DNA of 21,369 nt from a virus: the IMG/VR virus record IMGVR_UViG_3300021378_000194, positions 1 through 21,369 of that record; one strand, 5' to 3'. This document shows, in pieces, positions 3,575 through 20,762 of the stretch (positions within the stretch are counted from its first letter, which is position 1; every line of letters starts with the position of its first letter). A program made the translations under genes and the position numbers. The notes under the pieces are model-generated. The model was not told the origin of the DNA. It did not search any database and saw only the letters and a program-made list of their open reading frames with translations.

Positions 3575-4885
3575 ATGGCTACACTTTCAAGTGGAGATAC
3601 TTTATCATTAGCAGATTTAAGAGATTCAACAGCAGCTACAACGGCTGCAATATCTGATGTAATGGGTACAACTCCATCCGCAGGAGATAACATTAGTTTT
3701 TCATCGTTCGCAATCGATTCGGTTGGTTCAATTAGTGGATATACTTATGGTGTTGAAAACACCGATGAGAATTACACTCTTCAATTTGGTGGAGCTGGTA
3801 CAAATCATAGTAAATTATCAGCACATAGTGGTAACTTCACATGGTCAAAAGCCGCAGGAACAACAATTACTATTGCTGCAGGCGGAACAGCAACTGCAAC
3901 TGTATCTATTGGAGAAAATGGAGATAATTCAACACAAAGTCAAATTTTTTCAATACTATCTAATACATTAAGAGTAGTATATGATGAAGCATACAATGAC
4001 CACATTGGTGGAGCGGGTTTAGGTTTAATGGGTGAAAATATTGATAAAACTGTTTATTCAGTAGATTCATATGATGGTAACTCATCTGCATTATGTTTAA
4101 CCGCTGATTCACCTATTGAATTAGCAGATGGTGAAATTGTTGAAGCAGGAGATTTAGATGAAGGAGATATCTTAAAAGGTGTAAATCTAAATGGTTTATC
4201 AGAAGCACCAGATGGAAACTTCCTAAGATGGGATTCAGATACTCTTGGTAATGAATCAGTTGATGTAAATGTTATAAACCTTACATATTCTTTCGCATCA
4301 AGATATTATAATGTTAATGATGGTGAAATAACTGCAACTGCAGAACACCCTATGTGTATTAAAGATTCTAATGATGGTTTATTTAAATTCAAAGAAATAC
4401 ACCAATTAGTTGTTGGTGATAAACTTATAAAAGGAGATGGAACTGAAGTTGATGTGGTATCAATTGAAGCAATTGAGAAAACAGTAGAGATTGTATCTAT
4501 TGATGTTGATGGACCTGATACTTACTTAGCTAATGGATATATTACCCACAATAAAGGTGGTAATACATTTAGTAACTTTAGTGGACCAGCAGCACCAGCT
4601 AACTTAGCATATAATAATCCAGCTGGAGCACAAAATTCAACATTGACTTGGGATGAACCAACTTCAACAGGTACTGAGGGTATAACTGAGTATCAATTAC
4701 AAGTTGATGATTCTAATGGATTTGGTTCGTTAGATGGAACTCATAGTGGTACTTATAGTACAAGAACAATTAATGTATCTGGTCTTTCAACTGGTACATG
4801 GTATGCAAGAGTAAGAGCAAGAGAAATGGGAGTTTGGGGAAGTTATTCTTCGGCACTTGAATTCTCTCATACATTTGAAAACTAA
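3575..4885 (+). CDS. Hint (intein-like) domain tail protein with FNIII-like C-terminus
   Basis: The 436-residue product has three parts. Residues 1-173 form a Ser/Thr/Gly-rich N-terminal region that begins LSSGDTLSLADL, a start style seen in phage structural proteins. Residues 174-326 form a Hint domain: Cys174 in CLTADSPI (block A), TAEH at 255-258 (block B) and TYLANGYITHN ending in His325-Asn326 (blocks F/G). Only about 58 residues lie between blocks B and F, so there is no homing endonuclease. Residues 340-436 look like a fibronectin type III domain (PANLAY...STLTWDEP...GTWYARVRA). The residue after Asn326 is Lys, not Cys/Ser/Thr, so normal splicing is unlikely. Bacterial intein-like domains of this kind cut at one or both ends. 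The protein is inferred to be a self-processing tail adhesin. ATG 3575 follows an AGGAGA site. Confidence 0.82.
   Translation: MATLSSGDTLSLADLRDSTAATTAAISDVMGTTPSAGDNISFSSFAIDSVGSISGYTYGVENTDENYTLQFGGAGTNHSKLSAHSGNFTWSKAAGTTITIAAGGTATATVSIGENGDNSTQSQIFSILSNTLRVVYDEAYNDHIGGAGLGLMGENIDKTVYSVDSYDGNSSALCLTADSPIELADGEIVEAGDLDEGDILKGVNLNGLSEAPDGNFLRWDSDTLGNESVDVNVINLTYSFASRYYNVNDGEITATAEHPMCIKDSNDGLFKFKEIHQLVVGDKLIKGDGTEVDVVSIEAIEKTVEIVSIDVDGPDTYLANGYITHNKGGNTFSNFSGPAAPANLAYNNPAGAQNSTLTWDEPTSTGTEGITEYQLQVDDSNGFGSLDGTHSGTYSTRTINVSGLSTGTWYARVRAREMGVWGSYSSALEFSHTFEN
4094..4552 (+). other. Hint/bacterial intein-like domain (coding segment)
   Basis: This marks Cys174 (TGT, 4094-4096) to Asn326 (AAT, 4550-4552) of the protein starting at 3575. 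N-terminal Cys, block B His and C-terminal His-Asn are all present. The +1 residue is Lys327 followed by Gly-Gly. In known Hint chemistry the Cys makes an N-S acyl shift and the Asn cyclises to cut the C-terminal bond. Confidence 0.8.
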
Positions 4886-7785: not shown

Positions 7786-8274
7786 ATGGCAGAAGTATTA
7801 GAATTTAACGATATGTTCTACACGAACTTCGAACCGAAGATGAAGAACAGATACATCATGGAAATTGATGGTATCGCTTCATATTTGATTAAAACGGCAA
7901 ATAGACCTTCTATTTCCTTCGAAGTTGTAACATTAGACCACATCAACGTAAAAAGAAAACTCAAAGGTAAAGGTGAATGGCAAGATATTGAAATCACTTT
8001 ATTTGACCCAATCGTTCCAAGTGGAGCACAACAAGTAATGGAATGGGTGAGAACATCTCACGAATCTATTACAGGTAGAGATGGATATGCAGATTTTTAT
8101 AAGAAAGATTTAGATATCTATATGTTAGGACCAGTTGGTGATAAAATTGAAAATTGGAAACTTAAGGGTGCATTTATTAACAATGCAGTATTTAATGATT
8201 TAGACTGGGCTTCAAATGACCCATCTGATATTACTCTTACACTTTCTTACGATTACGCAATCTTAGAATACTAA
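7786..8274 (+). CDS. gp19: Tail tube protein (T4 gp19-like)
   Basis: The 162-residue product polymerises into the inner tail tube through which DNA passes. Its length is close to T4 gp19 (163 residues). It has the usual pattern: FEPKMKNRYIMEIDGI near the N-terminus, RPSISFEVVTLDHINVKRKL, WQDIEITLFDPIVPSGAQQV, VMEWVRT and a beta-rich end (DPSDITLTLSYDYAILEY). It lies directly after the sheath gene, as in most myoviruses. Asn, Tyr and Phe codons near the start are mostly AAC, TAC and TTC, unlike the AT-ending codons of neighbouring low-abundance genes, in line with high expression. A strong terminator follows. Confidence 0.94.
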   Translation: MAEVLEFNDMFYTNFEPKMKNRYIMEIDGIASYLIKTANRPSISFEVVTLDHINVKRKLKGKGEWQDIEITLFDPIVPSGAQQVMEWVRTSHESITGRDGYADFYKKDLDIYMLGPVGDKIENWKLKGAFINNAVFNDLDWASNDPSDITLTLSYDYAILEY

Positions 8275-8301: not shown

Positions 8302-8331
8302 AAAAGGTTCTCTTAGTGAGAACCTTTTTTT
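8302..8331 (+). terminator. Strong intrinsic terminator after the tail tube gene
   Basis: An 11-bp perfect stem, AAAAGGTTCTC (8302-8312) with GAGAACCTTTT (8318-8328), has a 5-nt loop TTAGT and a run of T residues (8325-8331). It would isolate sheath/tube transcription from the membrane cassette downstream. Confidence 0.9.
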
Positions 8332-8724: not shown

Positions 8725-8752
8725 AACTTTTTAAAAGTTATATATTTATATA
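8725..8752 (+). promoter_or_regulatory. Promoter-like element, copy 2 of the 28-nt pair
   Basis: This copy has a perfect 7-bp inverted repeat, AACTTTT/AAAAGTT around one T (8725-8739), and then TATATTTATA (8741-8750). It lies 22 nt before ATG 8775 of the gp26-like gene. Compared with copy 1 only the base at 8735 differs (A for G). Confidence 0.65.
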
Positions 8753-8774: not shown

Positions 8775-9533
8775 ATGGCAAATTATGATTTTCCAACAGA
8801 AATCATCTCACTACCCTCACAAGGTAAGTGTTACCCGGAGAGTAATCCCCTCTCAAAAGGAACCGTTGAGATTAAGTATATGACTGCACGTGAAGAAGAA
8901 ATTCTTGCATCGCAGAATCTAGTGAGAAGGGGGGTAGTGATAGACCGGCTTTTCGAATCAATTATAGTTGAAAAAGAAATTAATATAGATGATATTGTAT
9001 TAGGGGATAAAAACGCAATATTATTAGCAACTCGTATTTTGGGTTATGGACCTGAATATAAAATACAAGCTACTAATTCATTAGGGGATGCACAAGAAGT
9101 AACAGTTGATTTAGGTAAGGTACAAACAAAAGAAATAGATTTTGAATTACTTTCATCAGAAAACAAATATAAATTCACTACACCACATGGAAAAGATGAA
9201 TTAGAATTTAAGATTCTAACCCATGGAGATGAATCAAAGATAGATGCTGATATAAAAGCACTACAAAGATTAAATAAAGGTAGTGTATCAGCAGAACTTA
9301 CTACAAGATATCGATATATGATTCTTTCAGTAAATGGTGAATCTGATACAAAAACTATCACCAACTTCATTAATAATAAATTCATTACTCGTGATACAAA
9401 GGCATTTAGAGAATACATTGTTAAGATAACACCTGATATCAATATGGAATTCGATTTCGAGGATGACCAAACAGGAGATGTGGAGGTGAGAACAATCCCC
9501 ATGGGAGTTGGGTTTTTTTGGCCTACCGAATAA
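8775..9533 (+). CDS. T4 gp26-like baseplate/tail assembly protein, short product of a frameshift pair
   Basis: The 252-residue product shows the signature of the T4 gp26-like family (Pfam 'T4 bacteriophage base plate protein'): SLPSQGKCYPESNPLSKG and then VEIKYMTAREEEILASQNLV (about 13-50), followed by RLFESII and DIVLGDKNAILLATRILGYG. The C-terminus is IPMGVGFFWPTE, a usual ending of this family. It sits between tail tube and tape measure, where many tailed phages keep the tail assembly chaperone pair that binds the tape measure. A T7 run in the codons for GFF (9513-9519) lies 12 nt before the stop, and an overlapping open frame without ATG follows. I infer two products: this short form and a longer frameshifted one. 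No SD is seen at ATG 8775. Confidence 0.85.
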   Translation: MANYDFPTEIISLPSQGKCYPESNPLSKGTVEIKYMTAREEEILASQNLVRRGVVIDRLFESIIVEKEINIDDIVLGDKNAILLATRILGYGPEYKIQATNSLGDAQEVTVDLGKVQTKEIDFELLSSENKYKFTTPHGKDELEFKILTHGDESKIDADIKALQRLNKGSVSAELTTRYRYMILSVNGESDTKTITNFINNKFITRDTKAFREYIVKITPDINMEFDFEDDQTGDVEVRTIPMGVGFFWPTE

Positions 9534-9750
9534 CTATTCTATATTACTTCATAAACAAATTTTTGAACTTTGTTACCATGGTAATGGATTCACACAAGAA
9601 GGAGTTTATAGATTACCAATTCATATTAGAAGATTTTATTATAAAGAACTTGCTGATACAAAGAAGAAAGAAAGTGATGAAGTAAAAAAATCACAAAAAA
9701 AACAACAAGGACCTTCAGCTAAAGGACCAAATGTAAGAGTGAGGAAATAA
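9508..9750 (+). CDS. Frameshifted C-terminal extension of the chaperone (GT-like)
   Basis: This frame is open from 9490 (just after a TGA at 9487) to the TAA at 9748-9750 and overlaps the end of the gp26-like gene. It has no ATG anywhere; TTG 9508 is the only start-like codon near its beginning and has no fitting SD. After the slippery run the extension is about 76 residues: GLPNNYSILLHKQIFELCYH, a GFTQEGVYRLPIHIRRFYYK core and a basic, Lys/Gln-rich tail. The LHKQIFEL and V..(M/L)P...RRFY pattern is familiar from short proteins upstream of tape measures in T4-like marine phages. The expected fusion has 324 (+1) or 325 (-2) residues. It probably helps fold or recruit the tape measure protein. 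The stop lies inside a terminator hairpin. Confidence 0.72.
   Translation: MGFFGLPNNYSILLHKQIFELCYHGNGFTQEGVYRLPIHIRRFYYKELADTKKKESDEVKKSQKKQQGPSAKGPNVRVRK
9510..9520 (+). other. Putative programmed frameshift site (GGGTTTTTTTG)
   Basis: In the gp26-like frame the codons are GGG TTT TTT TGG (9510-9521). The P-site tRNA-Phe on TTT 9516-9518 can re-pair perfectly after +1 (9517-9519) or -2 (9514-9516) slippage; both lead into the frame ending at 9750. A -1 shift would not. Lambda-type chaperones use -1 and Mu-type use -2. A homopolymer sequencing error is the main rival explanation. Confidence 0.65.
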
Positions 9751-9767
9751 TTCCTCACTTTTTTTTT
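9739..9767 (+). terminator. Intrinsic terminator overlapping the chaperone stop codon
   Basis: The stem GTGAGGAA (9739-9746) pairs with TTCCTCAC (9751-9758) around the loop ATAA, followed by nine T residues (9759-9767). The TAA stop of the frameshifted frame is in the loop. It separates chaperone from tape-measure transcription. Confidence 0.85.
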
Positions 9768-10045: not shown

Positions 10046-12463
10046 ATGGCAAAATCTAAGGCAGAAATACAACAAGAATATAATGAGGCTCTGAAGGTAT
10101 CTCAATCATTAACCGGTGCGTTAAATAAAATGATTGATAATACTGAAAAATCTCAAAAAAAAGTATCTGATGCTCAAAAGAAATTTAATGATGAATTAAA
10201 AAGTATAAACTCAGGTGCAACCGATTATGAATCTACTCAAGATTCAATCTTAGCACTAGAAAAACAAAAAGCTGGTTTGGCTAAAAGGTATTTTGGTGCA
10301 AATGCAAAAATACTTCCACAAAAACAAAAAGAAGTTCAAGCAAATATTGATATTTTAAAAAATGAAGGTGAAAGAATTAAATTAGTTAATTCATTAGATA
10401 ATGCTGCACAAGATTTAGCTGGTTCTATAAATGGTTCTCTTGATGGATTATTAGATGGATTAGATGGTATACCTGTAATTGGTAAGGGGTTATCAAAACT
10501 AGCTTCCGGACCTGTAAATCATTTAAAGGGAGCATTTTCAGATTCAGCCAAAATATTTACAACAAAATTTAGTACAGCCCTAGCTTCTGGTAAGAGTGGT
10601 ATGCAATCTTTTGGAATTGCAGCTAGTGCTAGTATGAAAGTGGTAGCAAAAGCAATATTTAGTCCATTAGGAGTTATAGCATTATTCACTGCTGCCCTTT
10701 ATGCAGGAGCTATTGCTTTCCATAAAATGGAACAAGGTGCAAAATCATTTAGGGATGAGACTGGATTACTAAATTCCCAAACCAAGGAAATGGAAGGGAA
10801 TATTGCTGCAGTCTTTACATCAACAGTTGGGTTGGGCGCATCAATGGAAGATGTTGCTAAAGCAGCTGCTGAATTCACAAATGAATTTGGTGGTATAGAA
10901 CAACCAAGTAGACAGGTTATGGAATCCATGATGGTTCTTAATAAGAACTTTGGAATTGCAACTGGTGATTTAGCAAAAATAAATAAAGCATTTACAAATT
11001 TAGGTGGGTTATCACAAGATGTTGCTCAATCTAATATAGAATCTCTTACAGCATTATCACAACAAGCAGGAGTTGCACCATCAAAAGTAATGGCTGATAT
11101 AGCTGAAGCAGCTGAAGATTCAAATGGATTTTTCCGAGGAAACGTTCAAGCATTAGGTGCTTCTGCAATCAATGCAGCAAAAATGGGTTCTTCATTAAAA
11201 GAAGCAGTAAGAGTTTCAAAAGGTTTATTAGATTATCAAAGTTCTGTTTCATCAGAAATGGAAGCAAGTGCAATTCTACAAACAAACTTAAACTTCTCAC
11301 AATCTCGTTATTTAGCTGCAGCAGGAAAACCTGCTGAAGCTCAAGCAGCGATGGTAAAACAACTTAGAGAAACTGTTAATCTAAGTCAACTTAATACCTA
11401 CGAACAAGAAGCATTAGAAAAAGCTACTGGTATGTCTCTACTTCAAATGACAAACATGGCTAGAGTTCAAGAATTAGGATTATCATTAGATAAAGATAGA
11501 GCAAAACTATTAGGAGAAGCAACCCAAGCAGGATTAGATATAGCAAATATGTCAGCTGATGATATTAGGAATAAACTTCAAGCTTTAAAAGTACAAAAGG
11601 AACAACAAGGTGCTATTGAAAATATGCAGAATGAGTTTTCAGCATTAGGACAAAAAGCATTGATGGCATTTTTACCTATTGGTAAAGTATTGGTTAAAGG
11701 GTTAAGTAAAGCAATACCTATTATTGAAGGTATAGGTGATGGTATTACATTTATGTCCAGTGGAATTTCTAAATTTGGAAATGCCGTAATGAAGGCTTTG
11801 ACACCAGTAAAAACTATACTTGGTTCTTTTATTACTTTATTTACTGAAGGACCTCAAGCATTTCTTGATAAATTAAAAGAAATGGGTCCTGTTTTATCTG
11901 CAATTACTGGTGTTGTTGGTACATTAGCATCAATTTGGGTAGTTTCAATATTACCATCTGTGGTTGCAACAGTAACTTCTCTTGCAGTTGGTATGTTAGG
12001 AGCATTAGCAACGGCAATTCCTGCTATTATTACTTTTGCAGTAAGTATGGCTTCTGCAGCAATTGCTGCTATATCAACTGCAAGTGCAATGACTCTTGGT
12101 ATTGGAGCTTTAGCGATAGCAGGAGGTATTGCCGCAGCCGCAGTAGCAATGGATTCAAGTATTGATAGTACTAAAGGAAAAATTGAAAGTGTAGATGATG
12201 GGGTTATATCTCCAGATGGAAATATTATCAGTACACATCCCGAAGATTTCTTAATTGCAACCAAATCACCAGAAACATTAACTAATACAATATCAGATAG
12301 TGGAATGGTATCTATGGATGGTGTTATTAAAGAGCTTAGAGAATTAAAAGCAGCATTTATTTCAAATAAAGATGTTTACATAGATAATGAAAAAATTACT
12401 TCTCGTATCACAAGAACACAAGAGAAAAGTAATATTAACCAATTTGGATTATTAGGAGCGTAA
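10046..12463 (+). CDS. Tail tape measure protein
   Basis: The 805-residue product should set tail length and help DNA enter the host. Residues 1-125 are strongly helical with coiled-coil character (KSQKKVSDAQKKFNDELKS). A hydrophobic span lies at about 195-225 (FSPLGVIALFTAALYAGAIA), and a long cluster of Ala/Ile/Val spans at about 618-704. The central part (SMEDVAKAAAEFTNEFGGIE and later repeats of helices) looks like other tape measures. The C-terminal region has VDDGVISPDGNIISTHPEDF, an ending seen in many tape measure proteins. Its place after the chaperone pair and before baseplate genes fits. At the common ratio of about 1.5 A per residue, 805 residues would mean a tail of about 120 nm; this is a rough inference. 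Confidence 0.9.
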   Translation: MAKSKAEIQQEYNEALKVSQSLTGALNKMIDNTEKSQKKVSDAQKKFNDELKSINSGATDYESTQDSILALEKQKAGLAKRYFGANAKILPQKQKEVQANIDILKNEGERIKLVNSLDNAAQDLAGSINGSLDGLLDGLDGIPVIGKGLSKLASGPVNHLKGAFSDSAKIFTTKFSTALASGKSGMQSFGIAASASMKVVAKAIFSPLGVIALFTAALYAGAIAFHKMEQGAKSFRDETGLLNSQTKEMEGNIAAVFTSTVGLGASMEDVAKAAAEFTNEFGGIEQPSRQVMESMMVLNKNFGIATGDLAKINKAFTNLGGLSQDVAQSNIESLTALSQQAGVAPSKVMADIAEAAEDSNGFFRGNVQALGASAINAAKMGSSLKEAVRVSKGLLDYQSSVSSEMEASAILQTNLNFSQSRYLAAAGKPAEAQAAMVKQLRETVNLSQLNTYEQEALEKATGMSLLQMTNMARVQELGLSLDKDRAKLLGEATQAGLDIANMSADDIRNKLQALKVQKEQQGAIENMQNEFSALGQKALMAFLPIGKVLVKGLSKAIPIIEGIGDGITFMSSGISKFGNAVMKALTPVKTILGSFITLFTEGPQAFLDKLKEMGPVLSAITGVVGTLASIWVVSILPSVVATVTSLAVGMLGALATAIPAIITFAVSMASAAIAAISTASAMTLGIGALAIAGGIAAAAVAMDSSIDSTKGKIESVDDGVISPDGNIISTHPEDFLIATKSPETLTNTISDSGMVSMDGVIKELRELKAAFISNKDVYIDNEKITSRITRTQEKSNINQFGLLGA

Positions 12464-17546: not shown

Positions 17547-18314
17547 ATGAAGTATCTTACAAATGAAGAAATCCAACAAATGACTTTTGATTGGAGGTAT
17601 CGAGGATTTACAACAATACAATTACTTACTGAAGAAGAATGTGATGAAATAAACGAAGAAATGGAAAAAATTCGTTTAGAAAGAAATCTTACTACAAAAG
17701 AAGATGGTTCAGATTGGGGTGAATGGGACCCATTTATGTATCCACATAAATACTCAGATAAAATAGAAAAACTTTTTGTACATCCTAAAATCATAGAAGC
17801 TTGTGAATTTTTAATGAATGGTAAATTAGTTGGTATGCAAAGTTGGGCATATTTTAAACCACCAGGTCAATTAGGAAGAGATATGCACCAAAATGTATTT
17901 TATACAGGATGTGGCCATAATGAGATTATTAACATGGCTCTTGCACTTGATAATCATGATAAAGAAAATGGAGCAGTTTGGAATTACGAAGGTTCTCATA
18001 AATTGGGTATCCTTCCAATTGAGGTAGATGAGGAACGAGTAAAAACAAATCCAAAGAATTGGAGAAATGAAAGAGGTAAAGCTTGTGTAATGCCCAAAGG
18101 TCATGATTTTAGTAAGATAGAAGGTGATTGTAAAAAAGGACATATGGTATTACTTCACTCACATTGTGTTCATGGTTCTGAAGCAAATACTTCTAATAGA
18201 ATGAGAAGAAATTTCTTAGGTGGATATCTTGTAGAGGGAGCTAAATTTAAAGAAGGTGGGCATATGAAACGAACACCTATTGATGTTTATAAACTTCAGA
18301 AAAAACATTGGTAA
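17547..18314 (+). CDS. PhyH-like Fe(II)/2-oxoglutarate dioxygenase with HxN in place of HxD
   Basis: The 255-residue product matches the phytanoyl-CoA dioxygenase-like family: N-terminal helices with EEIQQMTFDWRYRGFTTIQL, then QSWAYFKPPGQ (98-108), MHQNVFY (113-119), ENGAVWNYEGSHKLGIL (140-155) and a C-terminal HSHCVHGSEANTSNRMRRNF (204-223). In this family iron is held by HxD and a distal His, and Arg binds 2-oxoglutarate. Here the first part is His114-Gln-Asn116, so the usual Asp is Asn; the distal His is likely His209 and the Arg 220 or 221. Typical substrates are small molecules; the phage substrate is unknown. It starts the accessory region, 32 nt after the tail operon. Activity is uncertain because of the ligand change. 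Confidence 0.8.
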   Translation: MKYLTNEEIQQMTFDWRYRGFTTIQLLTEEECDEINEEMEKIRLERNLTTKEDGSDWGEWDPFMYPHKYSDKIEKLFVHPKIIEACEFLMNGKLVGMQSWAYFKPPGQLGRDMHQNVFYTGCGHNEIINMALALDNHDKENGAVWNYEGSHKLGILPIEVDEERVKTNPKNWRNERGKACVMPKGHDFSKIEGDCKKGHMVLLHSHCVHGSEANTSNRMRRNFLGGYLVEGAKFKEGGHMKRTPIDVYKLQKKHW

Positions 18315-19847: not shown

Positions 19848-19955
19848 ATGAAAGAACACTTAGTAGAATTAATGTTAGCAAATACTTCCTTCACCGAAGA
19901 AGAAATCGGTGAGATGGATAATTGGGAAATCCGAATGCATTTAGGTTATGAATGA
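19848..19955 (+). CDS. 35-residue acidic microprotein
   Basis: ATG 19848 lies 3 nt after the previous stop, and the TGA at 19953-19955 overlaps the next gene's start by 8 nt. The product MKEHLVELMLANTSFTEEEI then GEMDNWEIRMHLGYE is predicted to form two helices. Coupled overlaps on both sides support a real gene, although it is too short for homology judgement. Confidence 0.5.
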   Translation: MKEHLVELMLANTSFTEEEIGEMDNWEIRMHLGYE

Positions 19956-20166
19956 ATTGGATTTACATGGAATGACTCATGATGAAGCTGTATTAGAAGC
20001 TGAGAATTGGGTTTTACTTCAATCAGATAATCCTATGTTTGAATGTAGAGTTATAGTAGGTAATTCTTCACAAATGACAACAAGAATTACTAATATGTTA
20101 GATGAATATGGATTTAGGTATTATATTCCAAGTTGGAATGTTGGTGAAATAATAATTTCAAATTAA
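19948..20166 (+). CDS. Smr-like mini protein
   Basis: The 72-residue product starts ELDLHGMTHDEAVLEAENWV, matching the LDLHG..xxEA beginning of Smr (small MutS-related) domains, followed by a strand (ECRVIVGN), a helix (TRITNMLDEYGF) and a strand (EIIISN). Smr domains are endonucleases or RNA/DNA-binding modules. The usual HGxG loop after the second strand is replaced by VGNSSQM, so catalysis is doubtful. The size equals a bare Smr core. It overlaps the upstream microgene by 8 nt and is 5 nt from the oxygenase gene. A nucleic-acid-binding role is inferred. Confidence 0.65.
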   Translation: MNELDLHGMTHDEAVLEAENWVLLQSDNPMFECRVIVGNSSQMTTRITNMLDEYGFRYYIPSWNVGEIIISN

Positions 20167-20171
20167 TAAAA

Positions 20172-20762
20172 ATGATAAATAATTTATTTTCAACACAAAT
20201 ATATGATTCAAAAATAGATAACGATATCTTTAATAAACTAAAAAAAGATGTGTTAAAATATATTGATAATAATGAAAAACTGTTTGTAAAAAACTGGCAG
20301 TGTGATACGTTATCAAATGTATTCTGTGAACAGAACGAAAAATTTTTACCAAACTATCTAAGCGAACTTATAATAAGCCACACCTCAAAATATATTGTTG
20401 AAGGTGGATTTACTCCAAGTGGATTTCTTATAGATAATTGCTGGATAACATTAGGAGGTAAGGGTGATTTTCAAGAGAGTCATGACCATCTTGGAGATAC
20501 TAAAGGTTCTCAAACTACGTTTTCAGGTGTTATGTATATACAAGCTGAACAGAATAAAGGTGGTGAATTTTTTATGGATTCTCCAATTGATACATTATCA
20601 AAATTATTACCAACAAATAATTCAAACCCTTCAAAAATTAGTATTTCACCCGAAGAAGGATTATTGATATCATTCCCATCATTTATAAAACATGGTAGTT
20701 TTATTTATAACTCTGATAAAAAGAAAAGAATATCTATTAGTTGGAACATAAAATTTATTTAA
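20172..20762 (+). CDS. 2OG-Fe(II) oxygenase family protein (2OG-FeII_Oxy_5-like)
   Basis: The 196-residue product has the layout of small phage 2-oxoglutarate oxygenases: N-terminal LFSTQIYDSKIDND, WITLGGKGDFQESHDH (91-106), FSGVMYIQAEQNKGGEFFMD (117-136), EEGLLISFPSFIKHGSFI (161-178) and KKRISISWNI (184-193). Likely iron ligands are in the His104-Asp105-His106 group and His174, with Arg186 for 2-oxoglutarate. Members occur often in marine T4-like phages. Substrates are mostly unknown; protein or small-molecule hydroxylation is possible. It is unrelated in sequence layout to the PhyH-like gene at 17547. It ends the small-gene cluster, and a new promoter follows. Confidence 0.78.
   Translation: MINNLFSTQIYDSKIDNDIFNKLKKDVLKYIDNNEKLFVKNWQCDTLSNVFCEQNEKFLPNYLSELIISHTSKYIVEGGFTPSGFLIDNCWITLGGKGDFQESHDHLGDTKGSQTTFSGVMYIQAEQNKGGEFFMDSPIDTLSKLLPTNNSNPSKISISPEEGLLISFPSFIKHGSFIYNSDKKKRISISWNIKFI

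Follow-up and report, generated by a model that had tools for sequence, protein, structure and literature searches.

We analysed a window of 21,369 nt of viral DNA, covering positions 1 to 21,369 of the IMG/VR virus record IMGVR_UViG_3300021378_000194, in which the tube, chaperone and tape measure genes, the shift site and the hairpin at 9735..9762 lie on the plus strand. A gp19-like tail tube gene (7786..8274, Pfam PF06841, E 4.2e-10) is followed by an ORF encoding a 252-aa protein (8775..9533) and by a tape measure gene (10046..12463, PHROG 167 tail length tape measure, E 1.1e-6). According to the profile matches in the window, sheath and tube genes lie upstream of the ORF and the tape measure gene lies downstream, and this order, with starts at 7786, 8775 and 10046, is the one expected of a tail assembly chaperone (TAC). 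The arrangement is widespread, as an ORF of at least 300 aa is found within 500 nt after the corresponding locus in 205 of the 241 loci of the wider group described below.

The ORF ends with GTT GGG TTT TTT TGG CCT ACC GAA TAA and carries a run of seven Ts (T7) at 9513-9519, within the putative shift site GGG TTT TTT TGG CCT (9510..9524). A sequence-only reading of this DNA had claimed that the gp26-like frame stops 12 nt past the GGG-T7-GG run, and that an overlapping frame in the +1/-2 register, open over 9490-9750 and lacking an ATG, encodes a 76-residue extension ahead of the tape measure gene. We found both to be correct. The extension (TAC-C, 9520..9750 with its stop) comprises codons 9520-9747, and the sole near-start codon of its frame is a TTG at 9508. 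Among the predicted coding sequences of the window, in-frame TTTTTTT occurs once and in-frame [T/C]TT_TGG occurs once, both at the shift site.

A terminator-like hairpin followed by nine Ts spans the stop codon of the extension (9735..9762, 12-pair stem, -13.3 kcal/mol), and similar hairpins are found in 67 of 171 unique relatives. Because it sits on this stop codon, the hairpin, which is predicted to mark the end of the chaperone transcript, places the extension on that transcript. A second strong terminator-like hairpin with a T run lies at 8302-8328, so that the chaperone transcription unit is bracketed by two such structures.

Scanning IMG/VR with the 252-aa protein yielded 80 closest loci with 66-98% identity, and approximately 180 more came from scans seeded with an uncultured phage protein, the Microcystis phage Mel-JY01 and the Flavobacterium phage immuto. 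The sequence GGG TTT TTT TGG CCT is invariant in 80/80 of the closest relatives, all of which carry GGGTTTTTTTGGCCT[A/T]CC, a degree of T7 conservation that is far beyond chance. A run of six Ts, which would have turned the two frames into a simple single ORF, is thereby excluded. Furthermore, an identical site is present in a contig of a Saprospiraceae MAG (L364, 71% identity), which, taken with the isolates from Flavobacterium, suggests that the hosts of the group may be Bacteroidota.

In the wider group, 256 of the 260 +1-group loci follow the pattern [TTT/TTC/CTT]-[TTT/CTT/CTA]-T(GG/AC)-CCT, and the remaining four, in which the site takes the form TTT_C or TTT_T, belong to distant phages. 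The T7 run, presented earlier as the essential feature, is therefore essential only locally; more distant relatives use TTTCTTT or TTCTTTT, and the core shared by all these sites is YTT_T ahead of TGG. The second slippery codon of the 190 unique loci is TTT in 157, CTT in 29, CTA in 4 and TTC in none. Thus phenylalanine at this position is written TTT in 157/157 unique loci, though 25% of upstream Phe codons are TTC, and the same holds for 45/45 de-redundified tree representatives. The proline codon after TGG is CCT in 190/190 unique loci compared to 38% elsewhere, a bias that selection on the overlapping codons of the second frame could explain alone.

The extension frame is open, or runs off the contig end, in 79 of the 80 closest relatives, and at least 50 open codons follow the site in 240 of the 241 complete loci of the wider group (median 75). 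The single exception in both sets is L003, in which a 5-nt deletion inside the extension (approximately 3776-3790) breaks the +1 frame and probably reflects misassembly or a defective variant. Median dN/dS values of the extension are 0.20 in the window clade and 0.43 and 0.37 in two other clades, compared to 0.18, 0.27 and 0.19 for the zero-frame part of the same clades, and the extension is under purifying selection. Homopolymers are error-prone in principle, and the frame break might be attributed to an assembly or sequencing artefact or to a decaying gene; identical T7 runs in 80 other contigs, frame-equivalent sites in isolate genomes and dN/dS well below 1 refute this and make it vanishingly improbable. 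The -1 frame, on the other hand, is variable, closing at +11 to +38 in many loci and often within 40 nt, and we rejected a -1 shift in the window. The conserved frame is the +1/-2 one, and not the frame reached by the canonical -1 tail frameshift at XXXYYYZ.

The second frame could instead be an independent gene translated by re-initiation or by coupled initiation at a near-cognate codon, for which the TTG at 9508 in the window would be available. However, in 103 of 256 loci the extension frame, followed to 24 nt beyond the site, contains no ATG, GTG or TTG, and in many loci it becomes open just some 22 nt ahead of the zero-frame stop, right at the slippery codons. A separate ATG-started gene, named earlier as an observation that would speak against frameshifting, exists in two derived relatives only (L260 and L265), and in both the slippery site has also been lost. 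We consequently regard independent initiation as very unlikely. A slippery site leading into a conserved, overlapping frame that has no start of its own is the configuration of a frameshifted tail assembly chaperone.

Next we examined how the two frames would be joined. It had been claimed that only a +1 or a -2 slip can do so; the frame is confirmed, and the site variants favour +1 over -2. At the T7 site of the window -2 re-pairing equals +1, and this site by itself cannot separate the two. For this, re-pairing after both slips was tabulated for each of the 190 unique sites. Re-pairing after +1 is good at the codon before TGG in 186/190 (TTT to TTT, or CTT to TTT), and the other four sites (TTT CTA) allow a +1 slip one codon earlier, from TTT to TTC. 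A -2 ribosomal slip would yield the same two products with one extra Phe at the junction; it reaches the identical frame, the P-site tRNA on TTT TTT TGG re-pairs perfectly after it, and the tail shift of phage Mu, which reaches the same relative frame, provides a precedent (PMC5009743). Against this, -2 at the 12 unique TTC TTT TGG sites would put the Phe-tRNA on TCT with a mid-codon mismatch, and at the four TTT CTA sites it leaves a third-position mismatch. Among distant phages, the sites of GXN1 (TTC TTT CGT) and LR756508 (TTT CTA TTC) pair poorly at -2 and well at +1 (TTT to TTC), and that of LIS04 (TTT TTT AGT) is compatible with either slip. Furthermore, the slipping codon of the 190 unique loci alternates between TTT and CTT and is never TTC, and this avoidance of TTC before TGG fits +1. 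The variants of the group thus do not favour a Mu-like -2 slip, which we consider unlikely.

Alternatively, RNA polymerase could slip on the T run and produce mixed mRNAs with one T fewer or two more. In favour of this, the run consists of seven Ts bordered by G and is the only in-frame T7 in the coding sequence of the window. In many relatives, however, the run is interrupted (TTTCTTT, TTCTTTT) and the frame is nonetheless kept, which argues against polymerase slippage, and this mechanism also leaves the avoidance of TTC at a single codon and the fixed TGG CCT unaccounted for. We judge it to be highly improbable and retain a +1 ribosomal shift as the preferred explanation.

We also looked for elements that could stimulate the shift. 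A Shine-Dalgarno-like element at the RF2 distance, 3 nt upstream of the P codon, is not conserved in the 190 unique loci, the codon before the slippery pair being GGG in 63 of them and otherwise AGC, ACC, AAC, ACG and others. A GGAGG-like stretch approximately 27 nt upstream was rejected as a stimulator, this not being a known stimulating distance and the stretch being incompletely conserved. Downstream, RNAalifold returned only weak helices without convincing covariation for a pseudoknot or hairpin. A GAGTA..TACTC inverted repeat at the stop codon was likewise rejected, since it has a 2-nt loop and is broken in relatives.

Tail assembly chaperones of T4-like phages were reportedly identified by Vladimirov, Gautam and Davidson in 2022. 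The 252-aa protein of the window matches PHROG 150 (baseplate hub, E 1.1e-7), and by itself it has no match to the Pfam family T4_baseplate (PF12322). This family nevertheless matches 24 of 45 homologues in the alignment led by the window protein (best E value 1.5e-28), as well as proteins of P-SSM2, KVP40, PA5oct, SP-15, GXN1 and LR756511 and residues 1-201 of T4 gp51. Profile comparison with hhalign gave a probability of 96% between the window-clade profile and the T4-like gp26 profile, 98.8% between the latter and T4 gp26, and 90% between the extension profiles of the window clade and of T4-like phages. Judged from these profiles, the short product is a member of the T4 gp26/gp51 family, a membership that points to a tail assembly chaperone pair consisting of a short form (TAC-N) and a frameshifted form (TAC-NC).

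Structure predictions are consistent with this assignment. TAC-N and the extension were folded apart with AF2 using alignments from IMG/VR loci only, giving models with pLDDT 91.6 and 84.8, respectively, the latter with helices at residues 6-20, 26-30 and 34-62. Searched against the predicted structures of BFVD, the TAC-N model matches the SP-15 baseplate hub protein (TM 0.85-0.87, E 8e-19) and T4-like "baseplate hub assembly protein" entries (TM 0.70-0.75, E 1e-14), so that on predicted models the fold is shared with T4-like hub assembly proteins. A fold search of the PDB returned no significant match for either part, the HK97 chaperone 2ob9 reaching a probability of only 0.28 for TAC-N.

Collectively, we favour the reading, with a probability of roughly 0.8, that the locus encodes the two tail assembly chaperones of a T4-like phage with a contractile tail, TAC-N and a +1-shifted TAC-NC. 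From a single mRNA, the gene very probably yields two forms of a protein that helps to build the tail. We infer that most ribosomes would stop at 9531-9533 and release TAC-N. In a minority of them, TTT 9516-9518 would occupy the P site with TGG waiting in the A site, and a forward slip by one base would re-pair TTT 9516-9518 on TTT 9517-9519 (CTT on TTT in relatives), as at RF2 prfB; the four CTA variants, which need a slip one codon earlier, are a counterpoint to this single slip position. Reading would resume at GGC 9520 and produce a fused 324-aa TAC-NC with the 76-residue helical extension predicted above, which would be translated only as part of TAC-NC. By analogy with lambda G/GT, TAC-N would coat the tape measure protein and the extension would recruit the tail tube subunit, the product of 10046..12463 being the expected client.

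The proposed shift resembles that of RF2 (prfB, CUU_UGA_C) in that a YTT codon in the P site is followed by T, with a CUU to UUU or UUU to UUU slip. This YTT_T arrangement is found in 186 of the 190 unique loci, before TGG or TAC, an A-site codon presumed to be slow. The spacing of the window GGG also resembles that of the RF2 element, whereas the clade of the window has the sense codon TGG instead of a stop and its Shine-Dalgarno-like element is not conserved. At the RF2 site, +1 slippage is strongest on CUU, CCC and UUU (PMC10885494), and the two common second codons of the +1 group, UUU and CUU, are both among them. F. johnsoniae has the prfB shift, as do 72% of the surveyed Bacteroidia (PMC8710568).

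Like lambda G/GT (PMC5009743), the locus lies between the tube and tape measure genes, and a shift late in the short ORF, probably an infrequent one, would add a C-terminal extension; the lambda shift is -1, and the likeness is one of layout, with no sequence similarity claimed. Other forward shifts have been described in HSTV-2 (very likely +1), in Listeria phage PSA tsh (CCC_UGA) and in SEA-PHAGES chaperones annotated as +1 (PMC5009743, PMC10885494), all of which share with the shift proposed for the window a forward direction and a location in a structural or chaperone gene of a phage, although PSA slips on a proline codon, in genes for the capsid and the tail shaft and not for a chaperone. 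Frameshifting in T4-like chaperones has been reported by Vladimirov, Gautam and Davidson (Virology, 2022), and T4 itself is described there as having separate genes 26 and 51, both as relayed in PMC10885494 and PMC12846349. Accordingly, while a shift into the +1 register of a gp26-like chaperone is strongly supported, the earlier suggestion that it extends the rule to T4-like phages is too strong, as such frameshifting, going by these relayed accounts, is already published. What seems to be new is the forward direction and a switch between -1 and +1 within the T4-like chaperone family. A limited literature search, which is weak evidence of absence, found no report of +1 shifting in this family.

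Frameshifts in tail chaperones are a textbook case of conserved recoding, and each family is usually taken to keep to one direction. The T4-like gp26/gp51 chaperones share with the window the PF12322 family, the TAC-N/TAC-NC logic and slippery Phe codons just before the gp26 stop, and T4-like relatives usually shift by -1, at T_TTT_TTC. T TTT TTC with the extension in the -1 frame is found in KVP40, in several sequences from jumbo phages and in the cyanophage-type loci, of which 80 were fetched, in contrast to the +1 of the window clade. This +1 frame is kept in distant homologues, namely immuto (TTT CTT TGG), Mel-JY01, SP-15, LIS04 and GXN1. T4 differs in having two separate genes; there gp51 comprises PF12322 over residues 1-201 and runs on into a segment that aligns with the T4-like extension at 27% identity, a layout consistent with the published view of two separately encoded forms.

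L260 (IMGVR_UViG_3300001528_000621) and L265, relatives of immuto nested in the +1 clade with full support, represent a natural loss of frameshifting. Their slippery codons are degraded (TTC TTG TAT and TTC CTT TGG CCA, respectively), and the extension is a separate ATG gene in another register with approximately 25 extra N-terminal residues. A tree of 73 rows places the +1 sites in two groups and the -1 sites in two groups, and its starred branches force at least two changes of the +1 label, of which one may be the L260/L265 loss, the reconstruction being limited by the position of the root, by long branches and by weak support for the fork that separates the +1 group from phages of Gram-positive hosts and its -1 neighbours. 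On balance, we favour the view that the gp26 chaperone family has changed the direction of its shift two or more times while using the same Phe-Phe codons: -1 at T_TTT_TTC in most lineages, +1 at YTT_T before Trp in a large clade that includes Flavobacterium and Microcystis phages, and +1 in phages of Gram-positive hosts (SP-15, LIS04, GXN1), in which the next codon is not Trp. The +1 event of the large clade would then resemble that of RF2, take place at a sense codon and apparently lack a conserved Shine-Dalgarno-like or RNA-structure stimulator. The family thus has members that shift by -1, members that shift by +1, the separate genes 26 and 51 of T4 and the recently split genes of L260 and L265. 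With these four arrangements in one protein family, hypotheses on how recoding direction evolves can be tested by comparing homologous genes.

Annotations of genomes of this group, among them immuto, Mel-JY01, SP-15 and LIS04, contain no fused product and show small separate ORFs or a gap instead. In cyanophages and KVP40, short genes directly after gp26 are annotated as gp51 or hypothetical; those of P-SSM2 ("gp51", L270 4708-4881) and KVP40 (L271 4822-4989) are in the -1 frame, T TTT TTC precedes the stop of gp26, and such genes are probably the chaperone extension and not separate genes. In jumbo phages of the LR756511 type (L088, L358, L360), the -1 site T TTT TTC is well upstream of the stop of the gp26 homologue, so that the frames overlap by roughly 50-100 nt.

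Elsewhere in the window, 3575-4885 encodes a structural protein in which a fibronectin type III domain is accompanied by a HINT-like segment (CLTADSPIELADG...TYLANGYITHNKGG; PT-HINT is below the cut-off), possibly a self-processing element. Near the tail genes are two 2-oxoglutarate/Fe(II)-type oxygenases (PhyH, 17547-18314; 2OG-FeII_Oxy_5, 20172-20762) and a small Smr-domain-like protein (19948-20166). Motifs of the form TATATTTA recur between genes at 8741, 9772, 18367 and 18728, with a count over the whole window that is not above chance.
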